Positions 16,967 to 57,750 of a DNA stretch of 64,000 nucleotides are shown in pieces. Each line of letters starts with the position of its first letter. Positions within the stretch are counted from its first letter, which is position 1. This stretch comes from Caproiciproducens faecalis (lineage in GTDB: Bacteria; Bacillota; Clostridia; Oscillospirales; Acutalibacteraceae): contig NZ_JAGFNZ010000002.1 in the NCBI RefSeq assembly GCF_019448085.1, positions 558,001-622,000 of the forward strand, given 5' to 3'. The notes beneath the pieces were generated by a model. That model searched no databases and was not told where the DNA came from. It worked only from the letters and a program-made list of their open reading frames with translations. Position numbers and translations under genes: made by a program.

Positions 16967-17265
16967 TGTGAATCGCCTCCTTATTGTAGTTGGCGGGCGG
17001 CGTTTCTTAAATCCTAACACTGTGCCGGGTGTTCCCTCATAACACATTTAAAAACCGGATTCACTTTTACAAGTTAAATCCGGGTGTAGGCATAAAAAAC
17101 GTCTGAGCATAATAAGGTCATAGATACAGAATCATCCGCACGCTATTCACTTATCGCACGCTCAAAGTATCTGTCGCCCGGTTTAAAATCGGACATACTC
17201 CACGGAAAAACCGGCCTGTTTCAGCCGCAACCTCCCGCTTCATCGCATATCTGTCGCAGTCGTGC
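16967..17265 (-). promoter_or_regulatory. Long untranslated leader of the rpsJ operon
   Basis: About 300 bases lie between the likely transcription start and rpsJ. No gene is apparent. The minus strand contains several short complementary segments (for example AACCGG/CCGGTT and a GGGAACACCCGG block). Such leaders often carry autoregulatory ribosomal-protein sites, but I cannot assign this one to a known class by eye. Confidence 0.45.
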
Positions 17266-25258: not shown

Positions 25259-25287
25259 TTGACACCGGTACCGTTCTGTATTATTAT
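25259..25287 (+). promoter_or_regulatory. Promoter of the aroF leader and operon
   Basis: Consensus TTGACA, 17 bases, TATTAT, about 30 bases before the leader peptide start codon. It is the only good plus-strand promoter seen before aroF. Confidence 0.82.
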
Positions 25288-25319
25288 ACAGGATAAGGTG
25301 AATGCAAAGGAGTTACACG

Positions 25320-25439
25320 ATGAATTTGGCCGCATACACAACACGATTTACAGGTTTTTCTTATCCCCGCTATTTTATGGCGTGGGATTATTGTGCATGC
25401 AGCAAAATCAACTGTAAGCTTTTGTGTAAAAGGATATAG
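25320..25439 (+). CDS. Aromatic-rich leader peptide of the aroF operon
   Basis: This 39-codon frame starts with ATG 25320, with the strong ribosome binding site AAAGGAG 7 bases upstream, and ends with TAG at 25437. The peptide has Tyr6, Phe10, Phe13, Tyr15, Tyr18, Phe19, Trp22 and Tyr24: eight aromatic residues in 19 positions, including a run YPRYFMAWDY. It lies between a consensus promoter and an intrinsic terminator, directly upstream of the aromatic amino acid operon. These features match attenuator leader peptides such as pheL and trpL. Its likely job is to stall ribosomes when charged Phe-, Tyr- or Trp-tRNA is scarce. I know of no named family for it. Confidence 0.8.
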   Translation: MNLAAYTTRFTGFSYPRYFMAWDYCACSKINCKLLCKRI

Positions 25440-25503
25440 CCGTATTTTATCAATAATGGGCTGATATTTTTAACGGAGCTGACAGCAGCCCCGTTATTTT
25501 TTT
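25348..25503 (+). promoter_or_regulatory. Putative transcription attenuator of the aroF operon
   Basis: Four pairing segments can be read. Segment 1 ttacag (25348-25353, inside the aromatic codons) complements the first six bases of segment 2 ctgtaagct (25412-25420, codons 32-34). Segment 2 also complements segment 3 agctgacag (25477-25485; 8 of 9 pairs), which is the terminator 5' arm and loop. Segment 3 otherwise pairs with segment 4 to form the terminator. Ribosome stalling at the aromatic codons would cover segment 1, free segment 2 and block the terminator. Another hairpin, atatagcc/ggctgatat (25434-25467), lies between. Confidence 0.65.
25471..25503 (+). terminator. Attenuator terminator before aroF
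   Basis: TAACGGAGCTG-ACAG-CAGCCCCGTTA (one mismatch) followed by seven T residues, ending about 37 bases before the aroF start codon. Confidence 0.88.
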
Positions 25504-25539
25504 ACTCATTTTATTGGCATGAATCAAAGGAGGATCAGT

Positions 25540-26580
25540 ATGATTATCGTATTAAAACCCGAATGTACCCCGCAGCAGCTAACAGAGTTCACCGACTCCC
25601 TGACCAGGGAATACAGCATCAAGGTGAACACCTGGGTGGGGACCCAGAGCACCGTGCTGGGGCTGATTGGCGACACTTCCGTCATTGATATTGACTTTAT
25701 TGCCGCGCAGGACTTTGTGGAAAGCGTCAAGCGGGTACAGGAGCCGTATAAAAAGGCAAACCGTAAATTTCATCCGGACAACACGGTGATTACCCTGCCG
25801 ACCGGGCAGACCATCGGCGACGGAGGACTCGCGCTGATTGCCGGCCCCTGCTCGGTGGAAAGCGAAGACCAGATCTGCGGGGTGGCCGAACGGGTTCAGA
25901 AAGCGGGCGCACAGTTTCTGCGCGGCGGAGCCTTCAAGCCCAGAACCTCCCCCTACGCCTTCCAGGGGCTGCGGGCCGAAGGACTGGAGCTTTTGAACGA
26001 GGCAAAAAAGAAAACCGGTCTGCCGATTGTCACAGAGATCATGAGCATTGGCCAGATTGATCTTTTTCTGAAGGAAAACGTGGATATTATTCAGGTGGGC
26101 GCCAGAAACATGCAGAATTTCGAACTTCTGAAGGAACTGGGAAAAATCAGAAAGCCCATCCTGCTCAAGCGCGGACTTTCCAGCACGATCGAGGAGCTTT
26201 TGATGAGCGCAGAATACATTATGGCCGGCGGCAACGATCAGGTTATCCTGTGCGAGCGCGGAATCCGCACCTATGAAACCTACACACGGAACACCCTTGA
26301 TATTTCCGCTATCCCGATTCTGAAAAGGCTTTCCCATCTGCCGGTGGTGGTGGACCCGAGCCACGCCTCCGGCATTGCCTGGCTGGTCGAGCCGCTGGCG
26401 CTTGCCGCGGTGGCAGCCGGGGCGGACGGACTGATTATCGAAGTGCACAACAACCCCTCCAAAGCACTGTCCGACGGCGCGCAGTCCCTGACCCCCGACC
26501 AGTTCGACCGGGTGGCGGCGCATGTGACGGCCGCTGCAAAAGCGTTCGGCAGAAAAGTAGATTCCCCCGTCAATATTTGA
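25540..26580 (+). CDS. aroF: DAHP synthase with N-terminal regulatory domain
   Basis: The 346-residue enzyme condenses phosphoenolpyruvate and erythrose-4-phosphate to DAHP, the first step of the shikimate pathway. Residues 1-70 form a ferredoxin-like regulatory domain ([20 protein letters not shown]), the type I-beta arrangement often feedback-inhibited by Tyr/Phe or prephenate. The TIM barrel follows, with [28 protein letters not shown] and [11 protein letters not shown] 25540 is chosen because AAAGGAGG lies 6 bases upstream; an in-frame ATG at 25519 would lie before that site. First structural gene of the attenuated operon. Confidence 0.96.
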
Positions 26581-26622: not shown

Positions 26623-27459
26623 ATGAATAAAAAAATCGTGATCGTCGGCCTGGGTCTGATCGGCGGCTCGCTTGCGAAAGCCTTTCAGAAATACAGCGAA
26701 TGCACCGTTGCCGGAATCGACCGGAACCCTGACACCCTGCAGGCCGCACTCGACTGCGGCGCGATTGACAAAATCGGGGGCGATGAGGACATTCGCAGCG
26801 CCGACCTGCTCTACCTTTGCCTGTACCCTCAGGCCGATATCGACTTTATCGCTTCGCACGCCCATCTGATCCCCCCGTCCTGCCTTGTTACCGACACCTG
26901 CGGCATCAAATCGGAAATCTGTGCGCATCTGCCGCTTCTGGCGAAAAAGCATGGCTTTCCCTTCGTGGGGGGGCACCCAATGGCGGGCAAGGAACAAAGC
27001 GGCTTTGCGGCAAGCGACGCCGACCTTTTTCTGGACGCCAGCTATATCATTGTACCGTGCGGCGCGTCACAGTCCGCCGTTGACCTGCTCAAGGCAATTG
27101 CCGTGGAGCTGGGTTTCGGCGGCACGGTCGTCACCACACCGGAGCATCACGATCAGATGATCGCGTTTACCAGCCAGCTCCCCCATGTGCTTGCCTGCGC
27201 TTACGTTATGAGCCCCCGCTGCCCGGAGCACAACGGCTTTTCCGCGGGCAGCTACCGGGATGTTTCCCGGGTGGCAAATATCAACGAACAGCTTTGGGCG
27301 GAGCTTTTCATCGATAACCGCAGGGCACTTTCCGAGGAACTGGATACGCTCATCACGAATCTTACCGATATGAAAGAGGCGGTCACAAAAGGCGACGCCG
27401 AAGCCCTGCGCGGCCTTCTGCGCACGGGCAGACTGATTAAGGAAAGGCTTGGTGAATAA
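26623..27459 (+). CDS. tyrA: Prephenate dehydrogenase
   Basis: The 278-residue enzyme oxidises prephenate to 4-hydroxyphenylpyruvate for tyrosine synthesis. The nucleotide-binding loop GLGLIGGSL is at 8-16; GGHPMAGKEQSGF is the conserved substrate segment and the C-terminal helical dimerisation domain follows. There is no C-terminal ACT domain, so end-product inhibition would need another mechanism, and no fused chorismate mutase (that activity is in pheA). It overlaps aroB by one base (TAATG). Confidence 0.94.
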   Translation: MNKKIVIVGLGLIGGSLAKAFQKYSECTVAGIDRNPDTLQAALDCGAIDKIGGDEDIRSADLLYLCLYPQADIDFIASHAHLIPPSCLVTDTCGIKSEICAHLPLLAKKHGFPFVGGHPMAGKEQSGFAASDADLFLDASYIIVPCGASQSAVDLLKAIAVELGFGGTVVTTPEHHDQMIAFTSQLPHVLACAYVMSPRCPEHNGFSAGSYRDVSRVANINEQLWAELFIDNRRALSEELDTLITNLTDMKEAVTKGDAEALRGLLRTGRLIKERLGE

Positions 27460-28511
27460 TGGAACTGACTGTCCGAACCTCCGGTACCTACCGGATTATG
27501 ATTGAGCGCGGCTGCATGGATGCGGTCGGCGAACGCGCCGGGGAGCTTTTCAAACCCGGTGCCAAAGCGGTCGTCATCAGCGACAGCAACGTGCTCCCGC
27601 TGTACGGGAAACGCATTCTGAATTCTCTGGAAGCCGCGGGGTTTTCCGCTTCCCTGTTCTCCTTTCCGGCGGGAGAGGAAAGCAAACGCCTTTCCTCCAT
27701 TGAAGCCATGTACGCCGAATGTGCGGCCCGGGGCCTGACCCGCAGCGACTTTCTCGTTGCGCTTGGCGGAGGGGTAACGGGCGACATGGCGGGTTTTGCC
27801 GCGGCAACCTTTTTGCGCGGAATTCCGTTTATCCAGATACCGACCACCCTTTTGGCACAGATTGACTCCTCCGTCGGCGGCAAAACCGGCGTGGATCTGC
27901 CGCAGGGAAAAAATCTGGTCGGTGCGTTCCACCAGCCCGCGCTGGTACTGATTGACCCGGACACGCTCAGCACCCTTTCGCCCCGGTACTTTTCGGACGG
28001 AATGGCGGAAGCAATCAAGTACGGCTGTATCAAAAGCCGGGAACTGTTTGACATGATTTTAAGAGAAGATGTCTCTCAGAAGATAGAAGAGCTGATTTTC
28101 CGCTGTGTGGACATCAAGCGCGAGGTGGTCGAGCGGGACGAATTCGACACCGGCGAACGGATGCTGTTAAACTTCGGTCATACCTTCGGCCACGCGCTGG
28201 AAAAACTGTACGATTTCAAAAAGCTGTCCCACGGGGAAGCGGTGGGAATCGGCATGGTGATGATGGCAAAATGCGGGGAAAGCAAGGGGATTACAAAAGC
28301 CGGAACGGCCAATGAAATCATTGCCGCACTGGAGAAATACAACCTGCCCACCAAGGATGAAATGCCTGCGGGCCGGGTCATTGAAGCCACCGCGCTGGAC
28401 AAAAAGAACAGCGGAAACAGAATCAGCCTGATTCTGCTGAAAGAAATCGGCGAAAGTTTTGTCGATGAGGTTTTCCGCGGCAGCCTTGCCGAACTGACCG
28501 GGGTGCTGTGA
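27459..28511 (+). CDS. aroB: 3-dehydroquinate synthase
   Basis: The 350-residue enzyme cyclises DAHP to 3-dehydroquinate using NAD+ and a divalent metal. Visible signatures are GGGVTGDMAGFAAATFLRGI, IPTTLLAQIDSSVGGKTGVD and FGHTFGHALEKL, which include the metal-binding histidines. Length and order are normal. Its start shares one base with the tyrA stop and its end with the aroA start, so translation is coupled throughout. Confidence 0.97.
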   Translation: MELTVRTSGTYRIMIERGCMDAVGERAGELFKPGAKAVVISDSNVLPLYGKRILNSLEAAGFSASLFSFPAGEESKRLSSIEAMYAECAARGLTRSDFLVALGGGVTGDMAGFAAATFLRGIPFIQIPTTLLAQIDSSVGGKTGVDLPQGKNLVGAFHQPALVLIDPDTLSTLSPRYFSDGMAEAIKYGCIKSRELFDMILREDVSQKIEELIFRCVDIKREVVERDEFDTGERMLLNFGHTFGHALEKLYDFKKLSHGEAVGIGMVMMAKCGESKGITKAGTANEIIAALEKYNLPTKDEMPAGRVIEATALDKKNSGNRISLILLKEIGESFVDEVFRGSLAELTGVL

Positions 28512-29731
28512 TGGCAAATGTACTCATTACCCCCTCCGTTCTGAGCGGAAACATCCTCGTCCCCCCGTCTAAAAGCGCGGCGCACCGCGCGGCGATCTGT
28601 TCCGCGCTGGCGGGCGGCAAACCTCTTTTTGACGGAGAAGCTCTGAGCAACGACATTACGGCAACCTGCCGCGCAATGCGGGCCATCTGCGGCGGCGGAA
28701 AAGCCGTTCAAATCGACTGCGGGGAATCCGGCTCCACCCTGCGCTTTCTGATTCCTGTCGCGGCGGCGCTGGGACTGAACGCGGAGTTTATCGGCAGCGG
28801 GCGTTTACCGGAGCGGCCGATCGGCGTCTACCTTGACTGCCTGCCGCGGCACGGCGTTTTGTGCAATACGCAGGGCGGACTTCCGCTTACCGTCAGCGGG
28901 CAAATGACCCCGGGCCGGTTCGAGTTGCCCGGAAACATCAGCTCTCAGTTCATTACAGGGCTGCTGCTCGCGCTTCCGCTTTTAAACGGCGACAGCGAGC
29001 TGGTTCTTTCCTCCCCGCTCGAAAGCGCGGGATATGTGGATATGACGATCGAAATCATGCGCGAATTCGGCGTAACAGTGCAAAGAGCCGAAAACGGTTG
29101 GAACATCCCGGGCCGCCAGAAATACCGCCCGTGCGAATACCGGGTGGAGCGGGACTGGTCACAGGCGGCGTTCTTTCTCGCCGCCGGCACACTGGGCGGC
29201 ACCCTGCGGCTGGAGGGTCTGAACCCGGACTCCTGTCAGGGCGACCGCGCGGCGGAACAGCTTTTCCGGGAATTCGGCGCAAGGGTGGAGTGGGAAGGTT
29301 CCGTTCTGTCCGTCTCACCAAAAGAATTAACCGGTATCGAAATCGACGCTTCCCAGATTCCCGACCTTGTGCCGGTTCTGGCGGCGACTGCCGCGCTCTG
29401 CCGCGGATGCACTCGGATTTACAACGCACAGCGGCTGAGGATCAAGGAAAGCGACCGGCTTTTCGCTATGGCCGACGGACTGACAAAGCTTGGGGGCAAA
29501 GTTGTGGAAACGCCTGACGGTCTCATCATTGACGGCGTTCCCCTGCTGCACGGCGGTAAGGCGGAAGGCTTTAACGATCACCGCATCGTGATGGCTCTTT
29601 CCATTGCCGCGCTGAAAGCCGACGGCGGCGTCACCGTCAGCGACGCGCAGAGCATCGAAAAAAGTTATCCGGCCTTTTTTGAAGATTACAATCGGTTGGG
29701 AGGAAAAGCAAATGTCTTCCACATGGGGTGA
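28511..29731 (+). CDS. aroA: EPSP synthase
   Basis: The 406-residue enzyme transfers the enolpyruvyl group of PEP to shikimate-3-phosphate. The N-terminal segment PPSKSAAHRAAICSALAGG with the catalytic Lys, ESGSTLRFLIPVAAALG, and the C-terminal RIKESDRLFAMADGLTKLGG and DHRIVMALSIAAL blocks are present. ATG 28511 overlaps the aroB stop (TGATG); a GTG just before it is a less likely start. The Gly-to-Ala glyphosate-insensitivity position was not assigned. Confidence 0.96.
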   Translation: MANVLITPSVLSGNILVPPSKSAAHRAAICSALAGGKPLFDGEALSNDITATCRAMRAICGGGKAVQIDCGESGSTLRFLIPVAAALGLNAEFIGSGRLPERPIGVYLDCLPRHGVLCNTQGGLPLTVSGQMTPGRFELPGNISSQFITGLLLALPLLNGDSELVLSSPLESAGYVDMTIEIMREFGVTVQRAENGWNIPGRQKYRPCEYRVERDWSQAAFFLAAGTLGGTLRLEGLNPDSCQGDRAAEQLFREFGARVEWEGSVLSVSPKELTGIEIDASQIPDLVPVLAATAALCRGCTRIYNAQRLRIKESDRLFAMADGLTKLGGKVVETPDGLIIDGVPLLHGGKAEGFNDHRIVMALSIAALKADGGVTVSDAQSIEKSYPAFFEDYNRLGGKANVFHMG

Positions 29732-30809
29732 AACAGTAAAAATATCCATCTTCGGCGAAAGCCACGGAAAAGCAATCGGCGTGGTGCTGGACGGTCTGCC
29801 CGCAGGGGAACGGATTGACTTTGACGCCGTTGCGCTGCAGATGGGCCGCCGCGCTCCGGGCAGGGACAGTACCAGCACTCCGCGAAAAGAAAGCGACCTG
29901 CCGCAGATTGTCAGCGGAATTTTAAATGATACCACCACGGGCGCGCCACTGTGCGCGCTGATTGAAAATACAAATACCCGCTCCGGGGACTACGATAACC
30001 TGAAGCTGGTTCCCCGGCCGGGGCACGCGGATTTCCCCGCACACCTGCGCTACGGCGGGTACAACGACGTGCGCGGCGGCGGGCATTTTTCCGGCCGGCT
30101 GACAGCCCCGCTCGTCTTTGCGGGAGCGGTCTGCCGCCAGATCTTACAGCGCAGGGGCATTGTTATCGGCGCCCATGTTTCCAGCATAAAGGACGTACAC
30201 GACGACCCGTTTGACCCCGTCCGTGTTTCGGAGGATTTACTGACTTCCCTATCGTCGGTTTATTTTCCCGTAATTAACGAAAGTGCCAAACAGAAAATGC
30301 TGGGAACGATTGAGGCCGCCCGGCTTGCGCAAAACAGCGTGGGCGGTGTGGTTGAGTGCGCGGTGACCGGGCTGAAAGCAGGAATCGGCGGGCCGCTCTT
30401 CGGCGGAATCGAGCCGGTGTTCTCCTCCATCCTGTTCGGAATTCCGGCGGTCAAGGGAGTGGAATTCGGCGCGGGCTTCGGCGCTTCGGCGCTTTTTGGC
30501 AGCGAGAACAACGACCCCTACTACTGCGACGGGGAAATTGTAAAAACCAAAACCAACCACGCGGGCGGAATCCTCGGCGGTATTTCCACCGGAATGCCGA
30601 TCATTTTCCGCGCGGCGTTCAAGCCGACGCCTTCGATTTCGCTGGAACAGGACAGTGTTGACCTGACCGCAAAAGTTGATACCAAACTCAGCGTACACGG
30701 GCGGCACGACCCCTGCATTGTTCCGAGGGCCGTCCCCGTGGTGGAAGCCGCGGCGGCAATTGCGCTGATGAACCTTATCAATCTGCAGACCGGAGGAATG
30801 GAAAGATGA
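29712..30809 (+). CDS. aroC: Chorismate synthase
   Basis: The 365-residue FMN-dependent enzyme converts EPSP to chorismate, the last common step. Signatures include FGESHGKAIGVVLDGLPAG, RPGHADFPAHLRYGGYNDVR, GGGHFSGRLTAPLVFAGA and the C-terminal GRHDPCIVPRAVPVVEA. ATG 29712 (ribosome binding site GGGAGG) overlaps the end of aroA by 20 bases. A longer start at 29679 inside aroA is rejected. No flavin-reductase fusion, so it is the monofunctional bacterial form. Confidence 0.96.
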   Translation: MSSTWGETVKISIFGESHGKAIGVVLDGLPAGERIDFDAVALQMGRRAPGRDSTSTPRKESDLPQIVSGILNDTTTGAPLCALIENTNTRSGDYDNLKLVPRPGHADFPAHLRYGGYNDVRGGGHFSGRLTAPLVFAGAVCRQILQRRGIVIGAHVSSIKDVHDDPFDPVRVSEDLLTSLSSVYFPVINESAKQKMLGTIEAARLAQNSVGGVVECAVTGLKAGIGGPLFGGIEPVFSSILFGIPAVKGVEFGAGFGASALFGSENNDPYYCDGEIVKTKTNHAGGILGGISTGMPIIFRAAFKPTPSISLEQDSVDLTAKVDTKLSVHGRHDPCIVPRAVPVVEAAAAIALMNLINLQTGGMER

Positions 30810-31930
30810 CTCTTGAAGAAATCAGAAAAGAAATAGACCGAATCGACGCAGAGCTTCTGCCTTTGTTCATGAAGCGGATGGACTGTGCGAAACAGGTGGC
30901 CGCCGTGAAAAAGGAACAGGGTCTTCCGGTGTTCAACAGCAGCCGCGAACAGGAGATTCTGGACCGTATCGGCAGCTTGGCGGGAGAATACGGCGGAGAG
31001 GCGCGGCTTCTGTATTCCAGTATGATGGATATGAGCCGCGCACTGCAGTACAACCTGCTTGGCGGCGGCGGGGAATTGCGCGAAACGATTCGCAAAGCCG
31101 GAGAAGCGCCGGAAAAAGCGGAAAAAATCGCCTGTCTGGGTGAAAGCGGCTCCTTTTCCAACGAAGCGCTCAGCCTGCTTTACCCAAAGGCTTCACCGCA
31201 GTTTTATCAGGGCTTTGGCGGAATTTTCGCGGCTGTCGCCAGTGGGGACGCGGATCTGGGTATTCTGCCGGTTGAGAATTCTTCCGCCGGTTCGGTCAGC
31301 GAGGTATACGACCTCATTCTGAAATATCGGTTCTATATTGTCAACGCGGCGACTCTGCACGTTCATCACTGTTTGGCGGCGGCTAAAAAAGTGGATGTCC
31401 GTACCATCGGCACGGTGTACTCCCACCCGCAGGCGCTCTCCCAATGCTCCGAATACATTACGAAAAACGATCTGCGTCCTCTGCCGTGCTCCAACACGGC
31501 CACGGCCGCACAGATGGTCGCGCAGCGGCAGGAAGCGGGAATTGCCGCCATCTGCTCCGAGCACGCGGCAAACGAATATAAGCTGAACATTCTGGACAGG
31601 GATATCCAGAACAGCTCCAACAACTGCACGCGTTTCGTCGTCATCAGCCGGAAGCTCTTCATTCCCGACCGCGCGCAGAAAATCAGCCTGTGCTTTTCCC
31701 TTCTGCATAAAACAGGTACGCTGTACAGTGTGCTTGCCCGTTTTGCGGCGCTCGGGCTGAACCTGACGAAAATGGAAAGCCGCCCGATTCAGGATAAAAA
31801 CTTCGAATACGATTTTTACCTGGACTTTACCGGAAATGTGCGGGAGGACGCGACTTTAAATTTAATCTGCTCGCTTCACGAGGAGCTACCCCGGTTTTCT
31901 TTTCTGGGGAACTACACAGAATGTGAATAA
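30806..31930 (+). CDS. pheA: Chorismate mutase-prephenate dehydratase (P-protein)
   Basis: The 374-residue bifunctional enzyme makes phenylpyruvate from chorismate. Residues 1-90 form an AroQ-type chorismate mutase (RKEIDRIDAELLPLFMKRM). Residues about 108-285 are the dehydratase with LGESGSFSNEAL, LPVENSSAGSV and the catalytic NCTRFVVI. Residues about 290-370 are an ACT domain with KTGTLYSVL and ESRPI, the Phe-binding motif, so feedback inhibition by phenylalanine is likely. It overlaps aroC by four bases (ATGA) and ends the operon. Confidence 0.96.
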   Translation: MTLEEIRKEIDRIDAELLPLFMKRMDCAKQVAAVKKEQGLPVFNSSREQEILDRIGSLAGEYGGEARLLYSSMMDMSRALQYNLLGGGGELRETIRKAGEAPEKAEKIACLGESGSFSNEALSLLYPKASPQFYQGFGGIFAAVASGDADLGILPVENSSAGSVSEVYDLILKYRFYIVNAATLHVHHCLAAAKKVDVRTIGTVYSHPQALSQCSEYITKNDLRPLPCSNTATAAQMVAQRQEAGIAAICSEHAANEYKLNILDRDIQNSSNNCTRFVVISRKLFIPDRAQKISLCFSLLHKTGTLYSVLARFAALGLNLTKMESRPIQDKNFEYDFYLDFTGNVREDATLNLICSLHEELPRFSFLGNYTECE

Positions 31931-31986: not shown

Positions 31987-32138
31987 CTTTTTGTGCGTCC
32001 CGCGCGTGACTTGCGCTTGCAGTACGGCGGATACTTTTTATGGGCTGCATGATGTTCCAGACACTCGGCGCATTTCCCGTGACGCTCGCATCGGATGTGC
32101 GGGCAATTGCAGGTGTCCGTTCCGTTTTCCAGTTTCAT
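31962..32138 (-). CDS. Small cysteine/histidine-rich protein
   Basis: The 58-residue product has CNCPHIRCERHGKCAECLEHHAAHKK followed by YPPYCKRKSR, a regular spacing of Cys and His that suggests one or two bound metal ions. Small proteins with this pattern occur widely in Clostridia without a known role. ATG 32138 is preferred (GAGGA 8 bases upstream); an ATG at 32168 overlapping the prmA stop (ATGA) would add 10 residues. Its stop codon is in the terminator hairpin. It is probably cotranscribed with prmA. Confidence 0.7.
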   Translation of the reverse strand: MKLENGTDTCNCPHIRCERHGKCAECLEHHAAHKKYPPYCKRKSRAGRTKSQKENPPV

Positions 32139-32164
32139 AGCAATTTCCTCACTGTCGGCCGGAA

Positions 32165-33082
32165 TCATTTCCGCTTTGCGGCAAGGGCCACCCAGCCCTT
32201 TTCGGTCTTCCGGCTGATGATTGTAAACTTTTTCTCCACTTCGTTTAATACATCCTGCTCGCGTGTATCAATAATCCCGCTCATCAGATATACCGTATCC
32301 GGATGCATAAACCGCTCAATGTCCTTTGTCAGCAGGATAATGACATCCGCCACGATGTTCGCGACAACAATGTTGTATTTTCCGCTGACCTTGTCGGTCA
32401 GGTCGCCGCAGATACCGGTAAAGCGGTCGGCCACATGGTTGATTTCCGCATTCTGTTCGGCGGTCTTGACCGCGAGCACGTCAATATCCACGCCGACGGC
32501 CTTCTGCGCACCCAGCAGCAGAGCCGCCACGGATAGAATTCCGCTGCCGCAGCCGACGTCCAGCACGCTGCAGCCGGGTGTAACAGATTCCTCCAGCAGT
32601 TCCATGCACAGGCGGGTGGTCTCATGAGTGCCGGTTCCGAACGCAAGCCCCGGCTCCAGGTGGAGCACCTTCCGGTCACCCGCCTCGTATTCTTCTTCCC
32701 AGGTGGGGCGGATCAAAAGCTTTTTACCCACCGCAATCGGCTTAAAATACTTTTTCCAGTTGTTAATCCAGTCCTCTTCCACACAGTTGGCGGTGGAGAT
32801 GGTGTGCCGGATTCCTTCCGCGGTATACCGCTCGCTTAAAAAGGCGATGGCCTCGGCCGGGTTTTCCTCCGGGCTGATATAGACGTGCACCTTTGCCTTT
32901 GAGCGGTCCTTTTTCAACAAATCCTCGTCAATCAGATCAATGTGCGCAATCTCCTCTACCTCTTCGCACAGGTGGGAATAGTCCTCAATATAAATTCCGT
33001 ACGGCACCACCATCTGGGCAATGTCGCCGGCCCTGTCAATCTCTTTTGCGTCTACTTCCGCTGTTACTTCCGTCCAGTCCAT
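32165..33082 (-). CDS. prmA: Ribosomal protein L11 methyltransferase
   Basis: The 305-residue protein has an N-terminal ferredoxin-like substrate-binding domain (about 1-110), a linker with WKKYFKPIAVGKKLLIRP, and a Rossmann methyltransferase domain (LDVGCGSGILSVAALLLGA for SAM binding, VVANIVADVI in place of the usual NILA motif). It trimethylates L11. AGGAGG precedes the ATG. It is often next to dnaJ or rsmE; neither is present here. Confidence 0.94.
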   Translation of the reverse strand: MDWTEVTAEVDAKEIDRAGDIAQMVVPYGIYIEDYSHLCEEVEEIAHIDLIDEDLLKKDRSKAKVHVYISPEENPAEAIAFLSERYTAEGIRHTISTANCVEEDWINNWKKYFKPIAVGKKLLIRPTWEEEYEAGDRKVLHLEPGLAFGTGTHETTRLCMELLEESVTPGCSVLDVGCGSGILSVAALLLGAQKAVGVDIDVLAVKTAEQNAEINHVADRFTGICGDLTDKVSGKYNIVVANIVADVIILLTKDIERFMHPDTVYLMSGIIDTREQDVLNEVEKKFTIISRKTEKGWVALAAKRK

Positions 33083-40185: not shown

Positions 40186-40436
40186 AATAAAAAAACCTTC
40201 GCCTCTATGTATAGAGGCGAAGGTTTCACTTCGCGGTACCACTCTAAATTCGCCGAATAAACGGCATCTCAGCATGCATCCAACAATGCACTCCCCTGTA
40301 ACGGTGGGAACCCGGGCGTACCTACTAAGCGACTGTTCAGCTGCCTGCTCCGGGGTGATATCCTGCATTCGCCGCGCCGTCTTTCACCTGCCGACGGCTC
40401 TCTGTGAGCGGGAAGGATGCACTCTGTCCCCATCTG
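40186..40436 (-). promoter_or_regulatory. T-box riboswitch of ilvBNA, Ile specifier
   Basis: The minus-strand leader has a long stem I with the AGAGAG bulge, the T-box sequence AGAGTGGTACCGCGA (40231-40245) and a downstream terminator. In the specifier loop the reading GGAT-ATC-A-CCCC gives specifier ATC (isoleucine) at 40357-40359. Uncharged tRNAIle would bind and favour antitermination. Family assignment is firm; the specifier call is by eye. Confidence 0.9.
40190..40225 (-). terminator. T-box terminator before ilvB
   Basis: Minus strand AACCTTCGCCTCTA-TACA-TAGAGGCGAAGGTT followed by a T run. Confidence 0.92.
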
Positions 40437-40458
40437 CGCATTTTTGTTATTAGTTTAT

Positions 40459-57506: not shown

Positions 57507-57750
57507 CCTCCAATAAAAAATGCCGCCCACGTCCCCCAAGAAGGGACGGAGGCGGTCATTGTACCGCGGTTCCACTCCGTTTTATCACTTATGTCAGCCG
57601 TTAACGGTGCCAGCCGTGCGGAGATACTGATTTCCCCCCGCCTGCTCACGGATGCATTTCGCCGCGTGTCCTGCAAAAAGCGCTCTCAGCCCCGGCGCTT
57701 TCTCTCTGATGCCCGCACTGCGGTTACTTCTTCCGCTCAACGCATTTCAA
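57507..57750 (-). promoter_or_regulatory. T-box riboswitch of cysE-cysS-ybaK, Cys specifier
   Basis: The minus-strand leader contains a long stem I with the AGAGAG bulge, the T-box AGTGGAACCGCGGT (57563-57576) and a terminator. In the specifier loop the sequence GAAA-TGC-A gives specifier TGC (cysteine) at 57654-57656. Uncharged tRNACys would relieve termination. Confidence 0.9.
57515..57555 (-). terminator. T-box terminator before cysE
   Basis: Minus strand CCGCC-TC-CGTCCC ... GGGACG-TG-GGCGG followed by CATTTTTT. Confidence 0.88.

Follow-up and report, generated by a model that had tools for sequence, protein, structure and literature searches.

Ribosome-mediated attenuators of the trpL/pheL type are known from the enterobacteria, and control by leader peptides, long known in Escherichia coli, has seldom been recognised in the bacterial branch to which the genome considered here belongs.

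Several reports describe or propose such control in other bacteria. In Firmicutes, ribosome-mediated attenuation has experimental support at the ilv-leu leader peptide of Staphylococcus aureus (PMC5794164), and leader peptides are also reported for hisS/hisZ in bacilli (PMC2965389). The uORFC-13-1 motif lies before aroF in Acholeplasma, and attenuation was proposed for it in 2021 (PMC8632094). A 2019 study reports, at shikimate genes, two candidate uORFs notable for their Phe and Tyr codons, Clostridium novyi being among the five genomes analysed there (PMC6429828); PMC11109978 contains no mention of aroF, heptulosonate or heptulonate. A description of the aligned leader class reported below was not found in a collection of open-access papers, which, with subscription papers outside its scope, is weak evidence of absence.

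The present analysis concerns the region upstream of aroF in the window, by which we mean the whole 64,000-nucleotide stretch of the Caproiciproducens faecalis genome that was studied. We describe the parts of this leader, their conservation, the covariation of an internal hairpin (P2) and the predicted alternative folds; ribosome-mediated transcription attenuation by the supply of Phe and Tyr is very probably the mechanism at work.

The aroF leader and its operon

The original prediction had put a promoter, a ribosome-binding site, a 39-codon open reading frame (ORF) with eight aromatic codons, a terminator and aroF in succession, and all of them were recovered at the coordinates it gave. The features of the locus are:

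25259..25287, + strand: sigma-70-type promoter, TTGACA at 25259, 17-base spacer, TATTAT ending at 25287 (consensus scan, 11/12)
25302..25323, + strand: segment 1, the Shine-Dalgarno (SD)/start region, predicted to pair with 25408-25427 in untranslated RNA (helix P1; fold)
25306..25312, + strand: SD sequence of the leader ORF, AAAGGAG (sequence)
25320..25439, + strand: leader ORF, ATG at 25320, 39 codons and TAG at 25437-25439 (sequence; kept before aroF in relatives)
25325..25341, + strand: 5' strand of P1b, with predicted partner 25391-25406 in untranslated RNA (fold)
25344..25349, + strand: invariant codons CGA-UUU, Arg9-Phe10 (codon counts in 65 leaders)
25363..25388, + strand: P2 hairpin within the aromatic codons (covariation)
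25412..25427, + strand (25408-25427 in the untranslated pairing): segment 2, predicted antiterminator 5' strand or, alternatively, anti-SD strand (nascent folds)
25430..25471, + strand: P3 hairpin spanning the stop codon region and adjoining the antiterminator helix in the fold (folds)
25471..25503, + strand: intrinsic terminator and U tract, hairpin 25471-25496 followed by T7, its 5' arm 25473-25485 being the switch strand (sequence, folds)
25540..26580, + strand: aroF, 3-deoxy-7-phosphoheptulonate synthase (DAHP synthase; NF006421, 478 bits against a cut-off of 335)
26623..31930, + strand: remaining operon, tyrA, aroB, aroA, aroC and chorismate mutase-prephenate dehydratase (pheA) (NCBIfam matches)

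The leader peptide, MNLAAYTTRFTGFSYPRYFMAWDYCACSKINCKLLCKRI, has no NCBIfam family and carries Tyr6, Phe10, Phe13, Tyr15, Tyr18, Phe19, Trp22 and Tyr24, that is, eight aromatic residues within 19 positions (codons 6-24). An alternative start at ATG 25302, giving 45 residues, was rejected because the SD sequence comes after that ATG and the relatives L002-L004 lack it; in the leader alignment the relatives have SD-like sequence ahead of the ATG that matches 25320. The general hallmarks of an attenuator are thus present: 1) a short ORF with an SD sequence, translatable as judged from its sequence; 2) enrichment in codons for the amino acids produced; and 3) a terminator before the first gene. 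As the operon runs aroF-tyrA-aroB-aroA-aroC-pheA, it comprises both branches, to Phe and to Tyr; its tyrA matches prephenate dehydrogenase models of NCBIfam at scores below their cut-offs. After pheA lies a 195-codon ORF (32040-32627, + strand) with no NCBIfam match at E 0.01.

Conservation of the leader peptide and its amino-acid inputs

A search with the peptide in 98 genomes, the window's own included, returned 30 loci, 15 of which have aroF just downstream. When a profile built from 18 peptides was run against 398 genomes of the family, 42 matches were obtained at E <= 4.6e-5; 41 have aroF in the stretch examined, and the last sits 122 bases from a contig end. One of the 41 (L162, in genome G250) and two weaker matches (L183 and L184) have another gene between the leader and aroF, epimerase-like by eye in the latter two, with a terminator present; the leader therefore stays at the head of the operon.

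A second set of aroF loci was chosen independently, by AroF similarity alone, as the best 80 of a longer list, which favours close relatives; L043, whose upstream region was too short, was left out. Of these 79 named loci, 48 carry, before aroF, an ORF that has a ribosome-binding site and a stretch of 20 residues with 6 or more aromatics. Among intergenic regions upstream of the other long ORFs of these loci, 3 of 213 do so, and dinucleotide shuffles reach the same threshold in 1.65% of cases (n=790). The loci with such an ORF include those of Clostridium thailandense, C. nigeriense, C. ganghwense, C. tyrobutyricum, C. mediterraneense and Marasmitruncus massiliensis. A terminator, scanned for at aroF loci only, was found in 65 of the 79, comprising all 48 with the aromatic ORF and 17 of the 31 that fall under the ORF threshold. 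A Clostridium-type peptide has matches in 17 of 196 class genomes at E <= 0.01, with aroF within the stretch examined in 5 of the 8 loci returned. The aromatic leader ORF before aroF is not a product of chance. A lack of conservation of peptide or pairing in related genomes had been named in advance as grounds for abandoning the original prediction; the computable part of that test was run and did not refute it, the peptide being kept just before aroF across genera. Counted against an attenuator are the 31 of 79 named loci with no qualifying ORF and the locus L014 (G003:C3, about 106443-106546), in an 85% complete genome, where a one-base deletion, or an assembly error, breaks the leader frame after Tyr-Phe.

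For a closer view of selection on the peptide we used 65 distinct window-type leaders, defined as ORFs with an Arg-Phe motif before aroF; they are what was left of 72 rows once seven judged spurious by eye (L048, L056, L091, L101, L102, L106 and L109, six of them without CGATTT) had been dropped. Aromatic residues fill 332 of the 385 positions at six codon sites of these leaders, and where a residue departs from the majority it is another aromatic in 48 of 101 instances, against 14.6 expected from free one-base changes. Between Arg9 and a conserved Cys there are 4 to 10 aromatic codons (mean 7.1), Phe occurring in 65/65 leaders, Tyr in 60/65 and Trp in 41/65. At the Trp22 site, Trp is found in 35/65 and Arg in 18/65. 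Nor do Trp codons track trpE: in 54 genomes the codon is present in 21 of 28 with trpE and in 15 of 26 without it (Fisher p = 0.25, no association), and Trp sensing was on this account ruled out as a feature of the class. The aromatic-site counts, the Trp22-site counts and the absence of a tie to trpE lead us to regard Phe and Tyr, as judged from sequence, as the conserved inputs and Trp as optional. Hence, of the three amino acids originally proposed to be sensed, Phe and Tyr stand as probable inputs, their codon sites being kept and interchanging in orthologous leaders, whereas Trp is not a constant part. In the window's own genome Trp may be an additional input; its leader has a Trp codon, though trpE was not found in that 97% complete genome with TIGR00564 and PF04715.

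One constraint in the coding sequence concerns the choice of codons. Arg9 is CGA and Phe10 is TTT in 65/65 leaders, and CGATTT was present in 66 of the 72 rows before the seven were dropped. As Arg-Phe served to select the ORFs, only the codons chosen are informative here: in seven genes nearby in the window, CGA accounts for 4 of 133 codons for Arg, and in the rest of the leader sequences for 10 of 166, where TTT accounts for 197 of 254 codons for Phe. The base that follows is A in 59/65 leaders and T in 6, across codons for Thr, Ser, Ile, Met and Phe, and the distance from the ATG varies among leaders. When the untranslated RNA is folded, UUU stays largely single-stranded (0.78-0.85) and CGA about half so (0.35-0.54), the leader-wide value being 0.39; a recurrent pairing partner is absent among the 65 leaders, 21 of which have any partner, at scattered places. 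This invariance is not predicted by the attenuator model and stands as a concrete constraint on the coding sequence that the model leaves unexplained; a pause at a rare codon or a site for binding a factor would be our guesses.

RNA structure and the predicted switch

For the leader RNA (25290-25540) the folding z-score is -2.84. P2 lies inside its run of aromatic codons. In 34 of the 38 leaders with equal spacing (L003, L014 and two duplicates were left out, and 27 leaders with other spacing fall outside the count), 7 of the 9 pairs of P2 show changes in both strands, and pairing holds in 84.3% of cells; the covariation score of 0.363 compares with 0.204 after shuffling and at most 0.190 after sliding. 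A hairpin of like shape occurs in leaders from the wider Clostridia, where 19 of 22 folded sequences (all except L071, L088 and L089) give 86.2% paired cells and a score of 0.423 against 0.270; RNAalifold returned zero consensus pairs on this alignment of 19, though the named helix counts as about 86% paired. Ten bases after P2 there is a nearly invariant T-G (25398-25399 in the window; columns 55-56 of alignment A3, at least 90% of 34 rows), which recalls a hairpin-type pause site of RNA polymerase and might be one. A hairpin of -8 kcal/mol or better stands ahead of a T run in 65/65 distinct leaders.

The original prediction gave segment 2 two competing partners. The complementarity of 25412-25420 to the terminator arm at 25477-25485 holds at 8 of 9 positions, as read from the sequence. 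On the other side, 25348-25353 is indeed complementary to 25412-25417 at 6 of 6 positions, but the partner predicted in untranslated RNA is chiefly the SD/start region: in the fold of the window, 25302-25323, with the SD and the start codon region, pairs with 25408-25427. Over the 65 leaders (the window's row used ATG 25302) the mean energy of the duplex between start region and segment 2 is -12.6 kcal/mol, compared with -8.4 once the start regions are shuffled, and that of the side first proposed (CGA-UUU-ACAG onward) is -8.8, compared with -7.6 when shuffled. Since related leaders are not independent, these comparisons and those for P2 are not strict tests of significance. Counted at one fixed register, in 49 of the 65 leaders, the start-region helix is weak (52% paired against 34-49% when slid), because the register shifts, and duplex energies are the better test. 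From these energies and the fold of the window, segment 2 looks like an anti-SD strand of the leader's own ORF as well as the strand of the antiterminator.

Alternative pairing was then modelled in nascent transcripts, cut ahead of the 3' arm of the terminator, as the mean probability of upstream sequestration of the 5' arm. With a ribosome held on the aromatic codons (free RNA from CGA+12 to +54) this sequestration is 0.69-0.70, against 0.58-0.61 in shuffled sequences; once the ribosome is past segment 2 it is 0.27 at CGA+84 (shuffled, 0.54) and 0.40 at +96 (shuffled, 0.51), and with no ribosome it is 0.51, a value that has no shuffled counterpart. Removal of segment 2 between CGA+54 and +84 thus frees the terminator arm, from 0.70 to 0.27, where the shuffled sequences go from 0.59 to 0.54. 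In the window the nascent fold of the stalled state pairs 25412-25427 with 25473-25485, adjoining P3; the untranslated fold leaves 25472-25485 free, and with a ribosome at the stop codon the terminator alone remains.

Full-length folds at equilibrium show little switching. The mean probability of the terminator is 0.85-0.95 in all states, against 0.91-0.94 in shuffled sequences, and, being nearly flat on average, it was dropped as a test of the switch; it drops under 0.6 at one or more stall positions in four of the 18 leaders listed, L001 (the leader of the window), L004, L013 and L034. Taken singly, antiterminator duplexes beat their shuffles at 5% in 16 of 65 leaders. Exclusion of the terminator by an antiterminator that stalling sets free is therefore seen in the nascent-fold modelling only and is mostly absent at equilibrium, so that of the switch originally proposed the nascent folds behave as the model predicts and the equilibrium folds mostly do not. 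Attenuators generally need co-transcriptional trapping, and as equilibrium folding prefers the terminator here, the switch must be largely kinetic and would depend on such trapping.

We infer a stalling ribosome, a kinetic choice between folds and a response to amino acids, which would work together as follows. 1) With no ribosome loaded, the SD/start region would pair with segment 2 (25408-25427), leaving the terminator arm free, and transcription would stop. 2) A ribosome that reaches the stop codon would pass and mask segment 2, and the terminator would form. 3) A shortage of Phe or Tyr, and perhaps of Trp too in the window's genome, would stall the ribosome within codons 10-24, opening P1b and P2; the freed segment 2 would then pair with the terminator arm 25473-25485 next to P3, and by antitermination RNA polymerase would enter aroF-tyrA-aroB-aroA-aroC-pheA. 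With two corrections, namely that Trp is optional and that the SD/start region is the predicted protecting partner, sequence and modelling support the attenuator interpretation. A wider formulation, which we put forward tentatively and consider possible, is an old, Clostridia-wide class of aroF leaders, in which one strand would act both as antiterminator and as anti-SD of its own ORF, a covarying hairpin, possibly a pause hairpin of RNA polymerase, would lie inside the aromatic codons, and CGA-UUU would be a second input, either as a pause at a rare Arg codon keeping ribosome and polymerase in step or as a site for an unknown factor.

Alternative explanations and relation to known systems

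A metabolite- or tRNA-binding RNA (a riboswitch, a T-box or a TRAP-like element) in which the open frame is incidental would account for covariation of P2 inside the ORF, and for a CGA-UUU fixed at the level of nucleotides with its UUU mostly unpaired, as in an aptamer loop. We nevertheless consider it unlikely. An RNA-only element would not require the exchange of Phe and Tyr codons far above the expectation from one-base changes, and Rfam families are missing at the site: release 15, T-box model RF00230 included, gave no covariance-model match there at gathering score, the sole match at E up to 5 was the unrelated L20 leader model (E 0.49), and a scan of the loci of seven relatives found nothing at the aroF leader. 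The T-boxes of the window's genome, 12 matches with 5 above gathering score, all lie elsewhere. Ten that were scanned precede tyrS, pheS, cysS, leuA, a TrpX-like transporter gene (scoring below the cut-off of that model), a TrpB-like gene, hisS, ileS, thrS and metF, and the other two are, from a reading of the sequence, apparently before ilvB and alaS. The structured leaders recorded elsewhere in the window are:

17171..17251, - strand: S10-Clostridia ribosomal protein leader (RF03136)
40210..40445, - strand: T-box leader before an ilvB-like gene
57545..57749, - strand: T-box leader before cysS

Against TRAP, the gene for the protein (PF02081) has 0 matches in the 97% complete genome of the window, and in a control search of 14, B. 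subtilis alone gave one.

It is very unlikely that the peptide, in the form RF..F.YP.YF..W.F.AC, is a nascent-chain arrest sequence that stalls the ribosome on a signal other than a shortage of aminoacyl-tRNA. Its non-aromatic residues are frequent at their columns (Pro in 41/65, Cys in 55/65), yet the Pro falls inside P2 and may be there for the sake of RNA pairing, the Arg is kept as the codon CGA and not merely as a residue, and Phe, Tyr and Trp interchange, which is unusual for arrest peptides. That a constitutive terminator simply follows a small protein gene with a function of its own, with no switch, is extremely unlikely: the equilibrium folds, which on average keep the terminator in nearly all states, would fit it, whereas the pattern of aromatic codons, its association with aroF and the drop in arm sequestration from 0.70 to 0.27 on removal of segment 2 would not. 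The attenuator reading also has in its favour a second DAHP synthase gene of the same genome (L124, G000:C2:886943-887644), which has no such leader; no aromatic leader ORF was seen upstream of it. By eye, this gene comes directly after a 5S rRNA-like sequence.

Most probably the aroF leader is a genuine attenuator, its mechanism belonging to a known class, and the operon would be regulated through it. Its distribution points to control of the shared aromatic pathway by a translated leader in many Clostridia, in coexistence, in this genome, with T-boxes ahead of tyrS, pheS and genes related to tryptophan. One leader can respond to several amino acids at once, and a T-box, which reads one tRNA, may suit such an operon less; the choice between T-box and leader peptide is here testable within one organism.

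With the trpL/pheL attenuators the aroF leader shares a short ORF rich in codons for the regulated amino acids, competing antiterminator and terminator, and a biosynthetic operon downstream. Its structural features seem to differ from those of the enterobacterial leaders: its codons are a mixture of Phe and Tyr, with or without Trp; its segment 1 is the SD/start region, so that segment 2 would also be an anti-SD; a covarying hairpin lies inside the codon run; its CGA-UUU is invariant; and its site has no Rfam match.

Other leaders can be compared through their published descriptions. The uORFC-13-1 motif resembles the aroF leader in having a uORF with one or more Phe codons, a promoter, a ribosome-binding site, a terminator and an extra stem before aroF; it differs in that its 24 sequences come solely from Acholeplasma and environmental samples and at least one Phe is described as coming from a U run (PMC8632094). 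As Clostridium novyi was one of the five genomes of the other study, its two uORFs could be the Clostridium form of the aroF leader (PMC6429828). The S. aureus ilv-leu and bacilli hisS/hisZ leaders are alike in using ribosome-mediated attenuation where T-boxes might be expected, and are unlike it in serving other amino acids and genes, in Bacilli and not Clostridia (PMC5794164, PMC2965389). The mechanism class is already known, and similar uORFs had been predicted earlier (PMC8632094, PMC6429828).
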